NCBI GenBank assembly: GCA_025934335.1
Contig: JAICYG010000002.1
Location: 1-42,648, forward strand
Origin: Thermoleophilia bacterium
GTDB lineage: Bacteria; Actinomycetota; Thermoleophilia; Gaiellales; Gaiellaceae
Direction of reading: 5' to 3'
Length of the DNA: 42,648 nucleotides
A program made the translations under genes and the position numbers. Under the pieces are notes generated by a model, which did not search any database, was not told the origin of the DNA, and was given only the letters and a program-made list of their open reading frames with translations. Below, one piece after another: positions 14,426 through 39,909 of the stretch; position 1 is the stretch's first letter, and each line of letters begins with the position of its first letter.

Positions 14426-14718
14426 CAGAGTGAGTATCGCCCGGGCGGCAGCTTCAGCGACAGCTCGACCCGCTTCCCGGGTGCGACGACGCCGAGACCC
14501 GCGATGTGGCGCGCGCCGCGGCGCTGCAGGCGCAGGTCGTGCGGGTCCTGGCCGAAGTTCGCGAGCTCGATCACCGCCGGCCCCGCCTGCACGTGTAGAC
14601 GCGAGAGCGTGAACGAGTACTCGCGTGCCACCACCTGCATCTGCGCGGGCGCGGGCGCGGGATTCGACGCGTGCACGAGCGGCGCCAGCAGGACTCCGGC
14701 GAGGAGGGCGAGCTTCAC
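14362..14718 (-). CDS. Cupredoxin/plastocyanin-like secreted protein
   Basis: Signal-like N-terminus VKLALLAGVLLAPLVHASNPAPA and type-1 Cu ligand pattern W-C-SVAN-H-RQLG-M. Confidence 0.78.
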   Translation of the reverse strand: MKLALLAGVLLAPLVHASNPAPAPAQMQVVAREYSFTLSRLHVQAGPAVIELANFGQDPHDLRLQRRGARHIAGLGVVAPGKRVELSLKLPPGRYSLWCSVANHRQLGMRATLIVSRR

Positions 14719-16070
14719 TTGACGAGCGTCGGCCGCGCGAACGACTTCGCGTGCGGGAGGATGCGCTCCGCGTCGAAGGAGAGCCACTGCTCGAGCAGGG
14801 CCGCGTACACGCCGCGGAAGTCGGAGGTCGCCTTCAGGTTGCCGTCCTCGTCGAGGCCGCCGGCGAGGCCGGGGAACTCGCCGACCTGCGTTCCGGCGGC
14901 GTGCGTGCCGATCAGGAAGCCGGTCCCGGCCGCGCCGTGGTCGGTGCCGCCCGACCCGTTCTCCTTCGCGCGGCGGCCGAACTCCGTCCAGACGAGCGTC
15001 AGCACGCGGTCGGCAACACCGCGCGCCTCGAGGTCTCGCTGGAACGCGTACAGCGACGCGGCCGTCGTCTGCAGAGCCGGGCCGAGCGCCGAGACCTGCG
15101 ACGCGTGCGTGTCGTACTCGCCGGTCGCCTCGAGCGCGACGCACCGCAGCGGCAGCCCGGCGGAGATCATCGCGGCGAGCCCCTGCAACCGCTGCGGGAA
15201 CGAGTCGCCCGTCGGATACGGCACCGCCGGTGCGGGAATCTTGTCGCCCGCGAACGGCGCGAGCTGCTTGCGGAGCGTCGCGGCCTGCGCCGTCACGCTC
15301 GCGGCGGTGCGCATCGCCGCATCGTCCCCGCCGACGCGGCCGAGGAGGCCGATCGCGTCGAGCATCCGGTCCTGCACCTCGCCCCACACGCCGGGCGTCC
15401 AGAAGTCGTACTCGCCGGGGCCGTCGATCGCCGCGACCGGCACCTTCGCCGTCGCGAGCGCCGGCTGCAGCGACCCCGTCAGCGAGAGCCCCTGCAGCGG
15501 GTTGTCCTTCGTGCCCGCGACGTCGAGGTAGCGGCCGAGCCAGCCGGTCAGGAGCCGCGTGTCGGTCGCACCCACCTCCCAGAAGTGGCGCGAGGTGAAA
15601 TGCGACTGGTCGGGATGGTCGTAACCCACCGCGGGCAGCACGCTCACCTTGCCCTCGCCGTGGAGCTGCGCGAGCGGCGCGAGCGCCGGGTGCCAGGAGA
15701 GGGACGCGTCCTCGGCGAACGGCGTGCCGCCGCTGACGGCGAGGTTCGGCCGCAGCTTCCGGTAGAGGGGGTCGGCCTGCGGCGAGAGGAGCGTGAGCGC
15801 GTCGGCCCCTCCCTGCAGGAAGACGGTGACGAGGATCGGCTGCTGCGGCGCGCTCGCGGCGGCGGCGATGCCCTCGTCGAAGATCCCGAGCCGGCCCGCG
15901 CCGTACACCGTCAGGGCGAGCCCGATCGAGCGCGCGACGAAGCCGCGGCGCGTGAGCCCGGTACCCGCGGGCATCGGCATGCCCGCCTCGATCGCCGGCA
16001 GGCCCTGCCCCGCGACCGCACGGAAGAGATCCGCGCGCGTGCACTCGTCGCAGACGACGCGACTGCTCAC
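14715..16070 (-). CDS. DUF1501 domain-containing protein
   Basis: TRRGFVARSIGLALTVYGAGRLG, LVTVFLQGGADALTLLSP, VWTEFGRRAKENGSGGTDHGAAG. Confidence 0.88.
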   Translation of the reverse strand: MSSRVVCDECTRADLFRAVAGQGLPAIEAGMPMPAGTGLTRRGFVARSIGLALTVYGAGRLGIFDEGIAAAASAPQQPILVTVFLQGGADALTLLSPQADPLYRKLRPNLAVSGGTPFAEDASLSWHPALAPLAQLHGEGKVSVLPAVGYDHPDQSHFTSRHFWEVGATDTRLLTGWLGRYLDVAGTKDNPLQGLSLTGSLQPALATAKVPVAAIDGPGEYDFWTPGVWGEVQDRMLDAIGLLGRVGGDDAAMRTAASVTAQAATLRKQLAPFAGDKIPAPAVPYPTGDSFPQRLQGLAAMISAGLPLRCVALEATGEYDTHASQVSALGPALQTTAASLYAFQRDLEARGVADRVLTLVWTEFGRRAKENGSGGTDHGAAGTGFLIGTHAAGTQVGEFPGLAGGLDEDGNLKATSDFRGVYAALLEQWLSFDAERILPHAKSFARPTLVK

Positions 16071-16137
16071 AGAGTCCCGCTCCGGCGCGGGCGGAGCCCG
16101 TGCCTCCGCTCCTTGATGAGCTCCGTCGAGCCTACGC

Positions 16138-17475
16138 TCATGAGGTCTGCAGGTCGGGGGACACGGCGATCAGCTGGCGGAGCGCGTTCTCGACGAGCAC
16201 CGGGTACTGCACCTGCTTCCAGCGCTGCGAGCCCGCCTGGCGCAGCGACTCCTTCGCGAACTGGAGCAGCGCCCGGTTCGTCGCATCGGAGAGCTGCGGG
16301 TTGCGCCAGAACGCGAGCGCGCGCTTCAGCACCGTCTGTGCGTCGGCCGGCGCCTTGCCCTTCGACGGGTCGAGCCGGCGGTCGTTCAGGAGCTGCGCGA
16401 CGCCGATCCATCGCCCGCGGAACGTGGCGGTGTCGAGCCAGCGCGTGTCGTCCCAGCCGGCGACGTTCGGTGGGTAGAAGAGCTGCTGCCCGGCGAGCGA
16501 GCCGATCCAGGCCCACGCGTCGGTGGTGACGCCGGCGCCGATCCGGCGGAGCAGGCCGGCGGTGTGGACGACCGGCGGCTTCGTCATGCGCGGGCCGGTG
16601 TACAGCGCCGGGTGCTTGAGGACGATCTCGAGCACCGGCTTCAGCTCGTGCCCCTGCGTGTATGCCGCCTCGAGCGCGCGTGTCGTCGCCGCGTTCGGCG
16701 GCACCGGGATGAAGTAGCCCCACAGCTTCTGCACGAAGAACGACGGGTGCTTCGGGTTGGAGAGGCACAGCCGGCACGCATCGCGCCACGCATAGCGGCC
16801 CGAACGGTGGAACACCGTCTTCGTCCCCGGGTCGTGCCGCATCGCGTCGAAGTGGAAGTCGTAGTCGCCGCGGCCGCGGCTCCAGCGGCTCGTCCACCCC
16901 GTCAGCGACCGTGCCTGCTCGCGCACGTCGCGCTCGGTGTAGGCGCCGCGGTTCGCGCCGAGCGTGAACAGCTCCATCATCTCGCGCCCGTAGTTCTCGT
17001 TCGGCGCGTCCTTCGTGTTCTCGGTGCCGTTCAGCCAGAGCAGCATCGCCGGGTTCGCCGTCACCGAGAGGAGCAGGCGCTCGAACGACCCGAGCCCGTG
17101 CTTCCGGAAGAGCTCGTTCTGCTGGAGCATCAGCGTCTGGTCGCCGACGCCGGCATTCGACGTCGCGAACCAGTCGTGCCAGACGAGCGCCATCCGCTCG
17201 ACGAGCGGCCGCGACGTGCGCACCATGCGGTCGAGCCACCAGCAGTGGTCGTGGCCCCAGCGATCGGCGGGTGCGAGCGGCCGACCCTTCGAGTCGTGCG
17301 GCCTCGGGCCGACGAGCTTCTCGACGCCGGGGTTGAGGAGCGAATGGACCGCGCCGTCGAGCCCGAGCTTCGCGAGCGCCTTCGCCTCGCCCGGGCGCGG
17401 GCCGAAGCCGGCACGCCAGAGCAGCCGCTCTGCCTGCGGCGCGCCGAACGTGCCCCGGTAGACGGGTGCACCCAC
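16138..17475 (-). CDS. DUF1800 domain-containing protein
   Basis: QAERLLWRAGFGPRPGEAKALAKLGLDGAVHSLL, NENYGREMMELFTLGANRGAYTERDV, NVAGWDDTRWLDTATFRGRW. Confidence 0.9.
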   Translation of the reverse strand: MGAPVYRGTFGAPQAERLLWRAGFGPRPGEAKALAKLGLDGAVHSLLNPGVEKLVGPRPHDSKGRPLAPADRWGHDHCWWLDRMVRTSRPLVERMALVWHDWFATSNAGVGDQTLMLQQNELFRKHGLGSFERLLLSVTANPAMLLWLNGTENTKDAPNENYGREMMELFTLGANRGAYTERDVREQARSLTGWTSRWSRGRGDYDFHFDAMRHDPGTKTVFHRSGRYAWRDACRLCLSNPKHPSFFVQKLWGYFIPVPPNAATTRALEAAYTQGHELKPVLEIVLKHPALYTGPRMTKPPVVHTAGLLRRIGAGVTTDAWAWIGSLAGQQLFYPPNVAGWDDTRWLDTATFRGRWIGVAQLLNDRRLDPSKGKAPADAQTVLKRALAFWRNPQLSDATNRALLQFAKESLRQAGSQRWKQVQYPVLVENALRQLIAVSPDLQTS

Positions 17476-17518
17476 GGACGCCGTATCGGCGCGTCCGCGG
17501 GCTGCCGCCCATCCCCCG

Positions 17519-17953
17519 TTAGAGCAGTTTGCGGAGGAGGACGCGGGACTCGCCGCGTCCGTCGTAGTTCTCGTCGACGCGCTCGACCTCGAACCCGAGC
17601 GCACGGTGGAAGGCGACCGAGCGCTCGTTCACCGGCGAGGTGACCGCGCGGACGACGCCGCGCGGAGCGACCGAGGCGAAGAACCGCTCGTACAGCTCCC
17701 GTCCGAGCCCATCGCCGCGCTTCTCCGGCGCGACGCCGACGAAGTGGATGTAGGCCTCGTCGGGGAACGTCTGCGAACGGAACCCGCAGAGAAAGCCCTC
17801 GATGCTCCCGTCCGCCTCGGCCACGAACGAGGTGTCGCGGAAGTGGACGAAGAAGAGCTTCGGGAGCATCGCCGCCATCGACCGCCCGCCCCACCACTCG
17901 TCGATCACGCCGATCACCTCGGCGTAGTCGGCAGGCTCGGCGTGGCGGATCAC
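17519..17953 (-). CDS. GNAT family N-acetyltransferase
   Basis: MIRHAEPADYAEVIGVIDEWWGG..., VGVAPEKRGDGLGRELYERFF acetyl-CoA motif; GTG start in a TCAC (GTGA) overlap with the upstream candidate selenoprotein. Confidence 0.9.
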   Translation of the reverse strand: MIRHAEPADYAEVIGVIDEWWGGRSMAAMLPKLFFVHFRDTSFVAEADGSIEGFLCGFRSQTFPDEAYIHFVGVAPEKRGDGLGRELYERFFASVAPRGVVRAVTSPVNERSVAFHRALGFEVERVDENYDGRGESRVLLRKLL

Positions 17954-18168
17954 TTCAACGTCGCGAGCACGTCGGCGAGCTCCGGGAACCGCCGCTCGGC
18001 GCGCTTCGAGAAGACGAGCTCGCCGTCGGCGAGCACGTCGAACTGGCTGTTCTCGCCCACGTGCATCTCCGCCTCGTGCCCCAGCCCGTTCAGCTCCGCC
18101 GCGAGACTCGCGGCGCGTCGGTCATAGCCGCTTCAGACCGGGCAATAGAGGATCTCGATACGCGCCAC
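17950..18168 (-). CDS. Candidate selenoprotein, SelW/Rdx family; UGA at 18133-18135 read as selenocysteine
   Basis: Minus-strand translation through UGA: VARIEILYCPV(U)SGYDRRAASLAAELNGLGHEAEMHVGENSQFDVLADGELVFSKRAERRFPELADVLATLK*. Rdx hallmarks on both sides of the UGA (YCxx-U/C, GELVFSK, RFPE). Split at the UGA and so absent from the ORF track. Confidence 0.75.
18097..18115 (-). promoter_or_regulatory. Candidate bacterial SECIS (bSECIS) hairpin
   Basis: Minus strand CGCCGCG-AGUCU-CGCGGCG: 7-bp perfect stem, loop with G in position 2, loop starts 24 nt after the UGA. Confidence 0.55.
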
Positions 18169-18200
18169 GACTTCGACTGTACCTCCCGTAGGGTGGCCGG

Positions 18201-23084: not shown

Positions 23085-23198
23085 AATCGCCGCAGTTCAC
23101 GTCAGTCCGCCGGACAGTGTCAGGGGGGAGCCGGCACGGGCATCCTCGTCGATCGTCTCGGCTCCGCGCATCAACCAGAAGGGTGATTTGCGCCGGAG

Positions 23199-23289
23199 CG
23201 GAGAAGGAGGGATTCGAACCCTCGAGGCAGGGATTTCCCCACCTAACGCCTTAGCAGGGCGCCGCCTTCAGCCACTCGGCCACTTCTCC
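23199..23289 (-). tRNA. tRNA-Ser (anticodon GCT)
   Basis: Minus strand GGAGAAGTGGCCGAGTGGCTGAAGGC...CTGCTAA...GGTTCGAATCCCTCCTTCTCCG; acceptor GGAGAAG/CTTCTCC, long variable arm. Confidence 0.96.
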
Positions 23290-23322
23290 GGGCGCGCGCA
23301 TCGTACCGCAGTGCCCCGGACG

Positions 23323-23350
23323 CGAAAGCCCGCGCGAAGGCGGGCTTTCG
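23323..23350 (-). terminator. Hairpin/terminator between tRNA-Ser genes
   Basis: CGAAAGCCCGC-(GCGAAG)-GCGGGCTTTCG, 11-bp perfect stem directly 3' of tRNA-Ser(GGA). Confidence 0.55.
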
Positions 23351-23356
23351 GCGAGG

Positions 23357-23445
23357 CGGAGGGAGAGGGATTTGAACCCTCGACGCACCTTTCGGCACGT
23401 ACGCGATTTCCAGTCGCGCTCCTTAGACCGCTCGGACACCCCTCC
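23357..23445 (-). tRNA. tRNA-Ser (anticodon GGA)
   Basis: Minus strand GGAGGGGTGTCCGAGCGGTCTAAGG...CTGGAAA...GGTTCAAATCCCTCTCCCTCCG. Confidence 0.96.
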
Positions 23446-23459
23446 GAGCGGAGGCCATC

Positions 23460-23912
23460 CTAGCCTTCGCCGCTTCGCGTCCCCATCGGCTCGACGGACG
23501 CGTTCGCGGGCACGTGCTGCACGGCGACGGTTCCCTCGACGTAGTGCTGCGCAGCGGGCCACGGCGCGAGCACGAGCACGAGCATCGAGTCCTCGAGCGC
23601 TCGGACCGCGTGTCGCTCGCCCGGATCGAAGGTGACGACGGAGCCGCCACCGCACTCCACCGACTCGCCGCTCGCCTCGACGGACACGCGTCCATGGTGG
23701 ACGTGCACGACCGCCCGCTCCCGGACGTGGTGCTCGCCCATCGCCTCGCCGGCGGCGAGCTCGATCACCACGACGCGGCACTCGGGCGCGCTGAAGAGCA
23801 CGCGCGGGATCTGTCCGTCGCGCCGCGGCACGCGCGGAGCATCCGACCCCGGCTCGCGCGGCGTCTGCTTCTCGGTCGACGGAGGCAGCGAGCTCAGGTC
23901 CCAGCGCTTCAC
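23460..23912 (-). CDS. Cupin domain-containing protein
   Basis: AAGEAMGEHHVRERAVVHVHHGRVSVEASGESVECGGGSVVTFDPGERHAVRALED. Confidence 0.85.
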   Translation of the reverse strand: MKRWDLSSLPPSTEKQTPREPGSDAPRVPRRDGQIPRVLFSAPECRVVVIELAAGEAMGEHHVRERAVVHVHHGRVSVEASGESVECGGGSVVTFDPGERHAVRALEDSMLVLVLAPWPAAQHYVEGTVAVQHVPANASVEPMGTRSGEG

Positions 23913-23943
23913 GGCCGGGAAGGCTAACGACTCGCACGCGCAC

Positions 23944-23974
23944 AGGTGTCTGACACCAGTGGTGTCAGACACCT
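23944..23974. repeat. 31-bp perfect inverted repeat (15-bp arms, 1-nt centre) built from two GGTGTCNGACACC palindromes
   Basis: AGGTGTCTGACACCA-G-TGGTGTCAGACACCT. Confidence 0.9.
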
Positions 23975-23983
23975 CGGACGATA

Positions 23984-24072
23984 CGGAGGGGGAGGGATTT
24001 GAACCCTCGATCCGCCTTGCGACGGATAACGGTTTTCGAGACCGCCGCATTCGACCGCTCTGCCACCCCTCC
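23984..24072 (-). tRNA. tRNA-Ser (anticodon CGA)
   Basis: Minus strand GGAGGGGTGGCAGAGCGGTCGAATGCGGCGGTCTCGAAAACCG...GGTTCAAATCCCTCCCCCTCCG. Confidence 0.96.
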
Positions 24073-24096
24073 GAGCGGGCGCAGTGTAGCCGTCGC

Positions 24097-39763: not shown

Positions 39764-39822
39764 CTCGCGACTGTTGATCAGTCGGCCGCACGATCGCAGC
39801 CGTCGATGAGAGGCCGATGAGG

Positions 39823-39909
39823 CGGCGGGGGTGGGATTCGAACCCACGGAGCCCTCGCGGGCTCAACGACTTTCAAGGCCGCCCTATTCGACCGCTCTAG
39901 CACCCCGCC
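39823..39909 (-). tRNA. tRNA-Ser (anticodon TGA)
   Basis: Minus strand GGCGGGGTGCTAGAGCGGTCGAATAGGGCGGCCTTGAAAGTC...GGTTCGAATCCCACCCCCGCCG. Confidence 0.96.

Follow-up and report, generated by a model that had tools for sequence, protein, structure and literature searches.

The SelW-like gene and its surroundings

On the minus strand of the window, as we call the whole 42,648-nucleotide stretch of DNA analyzed here, positions 17950 to 18168 carry a small SelW-like (Rdx family) selenoprotein gene, recognized by its translation, by Pfam and NCBIfam matches and by homologues that carry UGA at the equivalent codon. The open reading frame runs from a GTG start at 18168 to a terminal UGA stop (17952-17950), encodes 72 amino acids and contains exactly one internal UGA, codon 12 (18133 to 18135), at which selenocysteine would be read, so that the translation opens VARIEILYCPV-U-SGYDRRAASLAAEL. 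With this UGA given as U, the full product reads VARIEILYCPVUSGYDRRAASLAAELNGLGHEAEMHVGENSQFDVLADGELVFSKRAERRFPELADVLATLK, and the UGA forms the second position of the CxxU/CxxC redox motif, which is C-P-V-U here and lies near the N-terminus. Regarding family membership, Pfam PF10262 Rdx (SelT-SelW-SelH family) matches the product above its cut-off (E 6e-11); NCBIfam SelTWH_Campy scores clearly below its curated cut-off (E 6e-13), and CXXU_selWTH, compared with C in place of U, reaches 33.3 bits for a cut-off of 34.2 (E 4e-8). Standard annotation would truncate or overlook this short gene.

Behind the internal UGA, a 17-nt spacer (18116 to 18132, minus strand, AGCGGCUAUGACCGACG, read directly from the sequence) leads to a hairpin at 18097 to 18115 on the same strand, composed of the arm CGCCGCG (18115-18109), the loop AGUCU (18108-18104) and the arm CGCGGCG (18103-18097). 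The initial annotation had described a perfect 7-bp stem with a 5-nt loop whose second base is G, the loop starting 24 nt after the UGA, and the minus-strand sequence, re-read, is exactly as claimed on each of these points. RNAfold adds the A and U of the loop as an eighth pair, leaving a 3-nt GUC loop; the energy of the isolated hairpin is -13.1 kcal/mol with 7 bp and 5 nt, and -13.8 kcal/mol with the extra pair.

Upstream of the gene, a putative -10 box, TACAGT (18176 to 18181, minus strand), stands 13 nt before the GTG start and corresponds to a TANNNT motif conserved in the family. Within the 40 nt upstream of the start codon, TANNNT is found only at -15 to -12, with 51 occurrences for 60 window-family homologues. 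Its position suggests, as far as sequence can tell, that the transcript would start at or near the start codon, i.e., that the SelW-like gene may have a leaderless mRNA. The TANNNT box is also seen upstream of homologues L015-L073.

The GTG start of a GNAT acetyltransferase open reading frame (17519-17953, minus strand) overlaps the SelW-like stop in the sequence GTGA. Neither this GNAT gene nor the divergent epimerase, ArsR-like regulator and DUF1800 genes stand beside the SelW-like gene in any of the 59 other family loci, hence no operon partner can be named; this lack of conserved neighbors suggests that the SelW-like gene stands alone and has a promoter of its own. A DUF1800 and a DUF1501 gene lie adjacent to each other downstream of both the SelW-like and the GNAT gene (14715-17514, minus strand), and elsewhere in the window four tRNA-Ser genes (GCT, GGA, CGA and TGA) occupy 23198-24073 and 39821-39909 on the minus strand.

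The hairpin across homologues

In the window alone, the hairpin is not remarkable by its stability. The 49-nt stretch folds at -18.4 versus -18.66 for dinucleotide shuffles (z 0.09), i.e., at chance level, in agreement with the caution of the initial annotation that the hairpin by itself is weak evidence, and no SECIS family was found within the window by Rfam at the gathering threshold. When the protein was kept and synonymous codons of the window gene were permuted, a loose hairpin of any kind that equalled the observed one in length arose in 6% of the reshuffles, and a 7-bp stem with a 5-nt loop bearing GU at positions 2-3 in none of 200.

A search across the class (399 genomes) gave matches in 71 genomes, nearly all with a single TGA, which stands at the same codon. 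To widen the set, 398 genomes of the phylum were searched with a profile and GTDB genomes were scanned, and the homologues then reach Acidobacteria, Gemmatimonadetes, Chloroflexi, Proteobacteria and others. After removal of identical stretches, 162 distinct sequences were retained, with TGA at the selenocysteine codon in 148 and cysteine codons in 14 (12 TGC and 2 TGT). Across these homologues the reading frame after the UGA is kept to a common C-terminus, and the loop begins 24 nt after the UGA, or 21 nt in those one codon shorter. Loci L074-L084 and L087 form a second Rdx paralogue group (YCVPU...NAAGLAARIL) with a UGA and hairpins such as GCC-GGUCU-GGC; both groups are present in genomes G075, G197 and G307.

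UGA homologues without any hairpin, an outcome that the initial annotation had set against its own proposal, are not what the family presents: a stem of at least 4 bp is found in the same register in 129 of the 148, and most others have it shifted or with one mismatch. In the UGA homologues 90.9% of the stem cells are paired in the true register, versus 30-62% when the register is slid by 1-3 nt, and no pairing extends past pair 7. The covariance analysis suggested at the outset was run on the homologues and supports the hairpin, pair 1 covarying at silent sites. Indeed, among the 129 in-register homologues this pair is C-G 65 times and G-C 64 times, with no mismatch; its two bases occupy third positions, in most cases those of Ala/Val and Leu codons, and on the protein tree it has switched at least five times with both sides changing together. 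Pairs 1, 4 and 7 all link third codon positions, so that changes there are mostly silent; pair 4 occurs as CG, TG, GC, GT and AT.

The loop is still more constrained. In register it is mostly A/G-G-U-C/U-U, with G2 and U5 both invariant (129/129 each) and G2 followed by U in 123 of 129. Where the loop encodes serine, the codon is AGT in 91 of 97 cases, versus 17 of 561 (3%) elsewhere in the same genes (p 7e-86, a value inflated, like the other codon-bias p-values, by kinship among the homologues); where it encodes glycine, GGT is used in 38 of 40 versus 99 of 959 (10%) elsewhere in the same genes. Despite this kinship, the codon bias and the pairing are unlikely to be explained otherwise, given how many lineages are involved and that the sites are silent. 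GU at loop positions 2-3 together with a stem of at least 5 bp characterizes 88% of the UGA genes, 7% of the Cys genes and 2.8% of the synonymous reshuffles.

The 19 UGA homologues (of 148) with no stem in the main register comprise about 11 in which the register differs and about 8 with a mismatch in the stem. The former are L094, L095, L097, L102, L107, L108, L109, L211, L215, L216 and L218; most of them (L095, L097, L102, L107, L109, L211, L215, L216 and L218) place the hairpin about one codon upstream with a CGUGN loop, in which GU is still at positions 2-3, the stem of L094 being just 4 bp and that of L108 not convincing. In the latter eight (L017, L055, L059, L060, L082, L182, L192 and L197) the loop is kept.

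The initial annotation had also considered that Cys homologues might keep the hairpin equally well. They do not: GU stands at the loop positions in 0 of 14, and stem pairing falls from 90.9% to 38.8%, inside the range of the slid controls, the sample being these 14 mostly distant sequences. The closest comparison is offered by family f13, whose eleven UGA genes all have GGUCU or AGUUU loops on 5-bp stems; in its Cys genes L198 and L199 the equivalent stretch is GCCCUC-GGCCU-GAUCGA, with 2 bp only. As the genomes of L198 and L199 have selA, the absence of the hairpin tracks the absence of the UGA and not that of the machinery.

Selenocysteine machinery and interpretation

The window genome is a draft of 2.5 Mb in 226 contigs, 70% complete, in which all four components of the selenocysteine-decoding trait are present (selA, selB, selC and selD). 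The tRNA-Sec gene (selC), with anticodon UCA, scores above the Rfam cut-off and lies about 25 nt downstream of selB, a 600-codon frame with the Pfam domains SelB-wing_3 and Beta-barrel_SelB and a TIGR00475 match of 1e-67 (on the part scanned). selA is split into two pieces, each at the end of a contig, and one piece adjoins selB; selD is present as well. More widely, selA was found, by hand count, in 53 of the 65 window-family genomes with a SelW-like gene and in 20 of the 22 that are at least 90% complete; most of the 12 of 65 in which it was not found are incomplete assemblies.

The same genome holds two formate-dehydrogenase (FdhA)-like fragments with an in-frame TGA, on contigs C162 (L231) and C60 (L233). 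Read by hand, the context NNVDSCNRTUHAPSVVGLATVFGAGG is followed 18 nt on by a GGUCU loop on a 6-bp stem, and the context NQARIUHSSTVPSLGNSFGRGG, again 18 nt on, by an AGUCU loop on a 5-bp stem. The (A/G)GUCU loop is thus common to the SelW-like gene and to unrelated FdhA-like genes of one genome, and the organism is indicated to use selenocysteine in at least two protein families.

The UGA and the hairpin are conserved, the latter as RNA, the hairpin is absent where cysteine replaces selenocysteine, and the machinery is present. We regard it as nearly certain that the hairpin is a bacterial SECIS element, serving SelB recruitment and selenocysteine insertion at the UGA, in a SelW-like selenoprotein gene of a soil actinobacterium. 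Covariation, synonymous-site constraint, conservation of the loop and its loss in Cys homologues carry this assignment, and it is the comparison across homologues, not the folding energy, that settles it. The hairpin in the SelW-like mRNA would recruit SelB carrying GTP and Sec-tRNA(Sec), SelB would read the apical loop RGUCU through G2 and U3, and a ribosome reaching the UGA 24 nt upstream of the loop would insert selenocysteine without terminating. The expected product, 72 residues long, would be a thioredoxin-like protein of the Rdx family whose redox centre is CPVU. SelB binding, selenocysteine insertion and the redox function are inferred here from established knowledge.

Other explanations have to be weighed. 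The gene could truly encode a selenoprotein while the need to encode RAASLAAE in a GC-rich genome produces the hairpin as a side effect, SelB reading another signal or nothing at all. The chance-level folding energy fits this possibility, and so does the fact that 53% of the synonymous reshuffles yield some loose hairpin, with 5 bp or more and a G close to where the loop starts. However, coding alone accounts neither for the third-position covariation (pair 1 divided between CG and GC) nor for near-invariant codons, AGU and GGU, that are otherwise rare, nor for the absence of the hairpin in Cys homologues; moreover, the same loop recurs in unrelated FdhA-like genes of the genome, and in a subset of homologues the hairpin has moved by about one codon with its GU kept. 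Contradicted by the homologue comparison, this explanation is rejected as very improbable.

More improbable still are two further readings. A single in-frame stop in a short open reading frame of a draft assembly could be a true stop, or a sequencing or assembly error, in the pseudogene of a Cys protein, but 148 distinct homologue sequences carry UGA at this very codon, the conserved coding frame continues to the shared C-terminus, and ahead of the start a box resembling a promoter has been kept, so that the homologues leave this reading a negligible probability and it is rejected. Just as little credence can be given to a genome-wide reassignment of UGA to Trp, Gly or Cys, which has nothing in its favor apart from the in-frame UGA: the gene itself ends in a UGA, as do many homologues, the long neighboring genes are open without in-frame UGA, and tRNA-Sec, selA, selB and selD are in the genome. 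On these three grounds it is rejected as well.

Taking the hairpin as a SECIS element, its loop may even dictate the protein, for which we see about an even chance. In Sec-type Rdx proteins, the first helix would have its near-invariant Ser/Gly-Leu because AGU/GGU-CUN must spell the RGUCU loop that SelB recognizes, and in the Cys forms the residues at this site differ, being mostly Trp-Leu, Trp-Met or Trp-Val. In a second group the hairpin would have moved by about one codon, with nothing but the GU retained. What SelB recognizes in these bacteria would then be a helix free of bulges and capped by a GU loop, common to unrelated selenoprotein genes (SelW-like and FdhA-like) within one genome. 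The bSECIS signal is usually described as poorly conserved between genes. The present family provides a large and clean comparative set: it comprises far more than a hundred sequences of SelW-like selenoproteins, its loop follows a strict code, silent sites covary, and the relatives that carry Cys lack the hairpin.

Comparison with known systems

The loop of the E. coli fdhF SECIS is AGGUCU, and the initial annotation had likened the window's loop to it; the likeness holds for the G followed by U, which both apical loops share, and is incomplete in that the window's loop is one base shorter. In fdhF the element relies on U17, G23 and U24, the bulged U17 being required there (PMC8659212), whereas the stem in the window is an uninterrupted 7-bp helix without a bulged U in its upper part. 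The general bSECIS model does not include U17 (PMC13188914).

SelW-like selenoproteins have long been known in bacteria, with few Cys homologues in organisms using selenocysteine (PMC1088965, PMC1794560), and in Epsilonproteobacteria SelW genes missed by annotation carry SECIS elements of 5-6 bp with an invariant G, demonstrated by covariance (PMC4607533). Like these, the window gene encodes a CXXU Rdx protein and has a UGA with a bSECIS; it differs by its lineage, Gaiellaceae within Thermoleophilia. A literature search with selenocysteine and Thermoleophilia returned no earlier selenoprotein description among the titles and the opening parts of the abstracts.

According to a 2026 review, the bSECIS model comprises a loop of 3-9 nt on a stem of 4-16 bp, located 16-37 nt from the UGA, with a minimum free energy of -7.5 kcal/mol or lower and a G at one or both of the first two loop positions, mostly as N1-G-[G/U]-N-N2 with N1 pairing N2 (PMC13188914). 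The fit to the general description put forward by the initial annotation extends to every numerical rule of this model (PMC13188914): the element of the window lies in the open reading frame just 3' of the UGA, at 24 nt, with a 5-nt loop and 7 bp, and its loop A-GUC-U follows N1-G-U-N-N2 with A-U as the N1-N2 pair. Nothing in it falls outside the model, and the code of the SelW-like family is tighter (RGUCU on a 7-bp stem), with a minority CGUGN register; the element adds a new and well-supported example to a mechanism already known.
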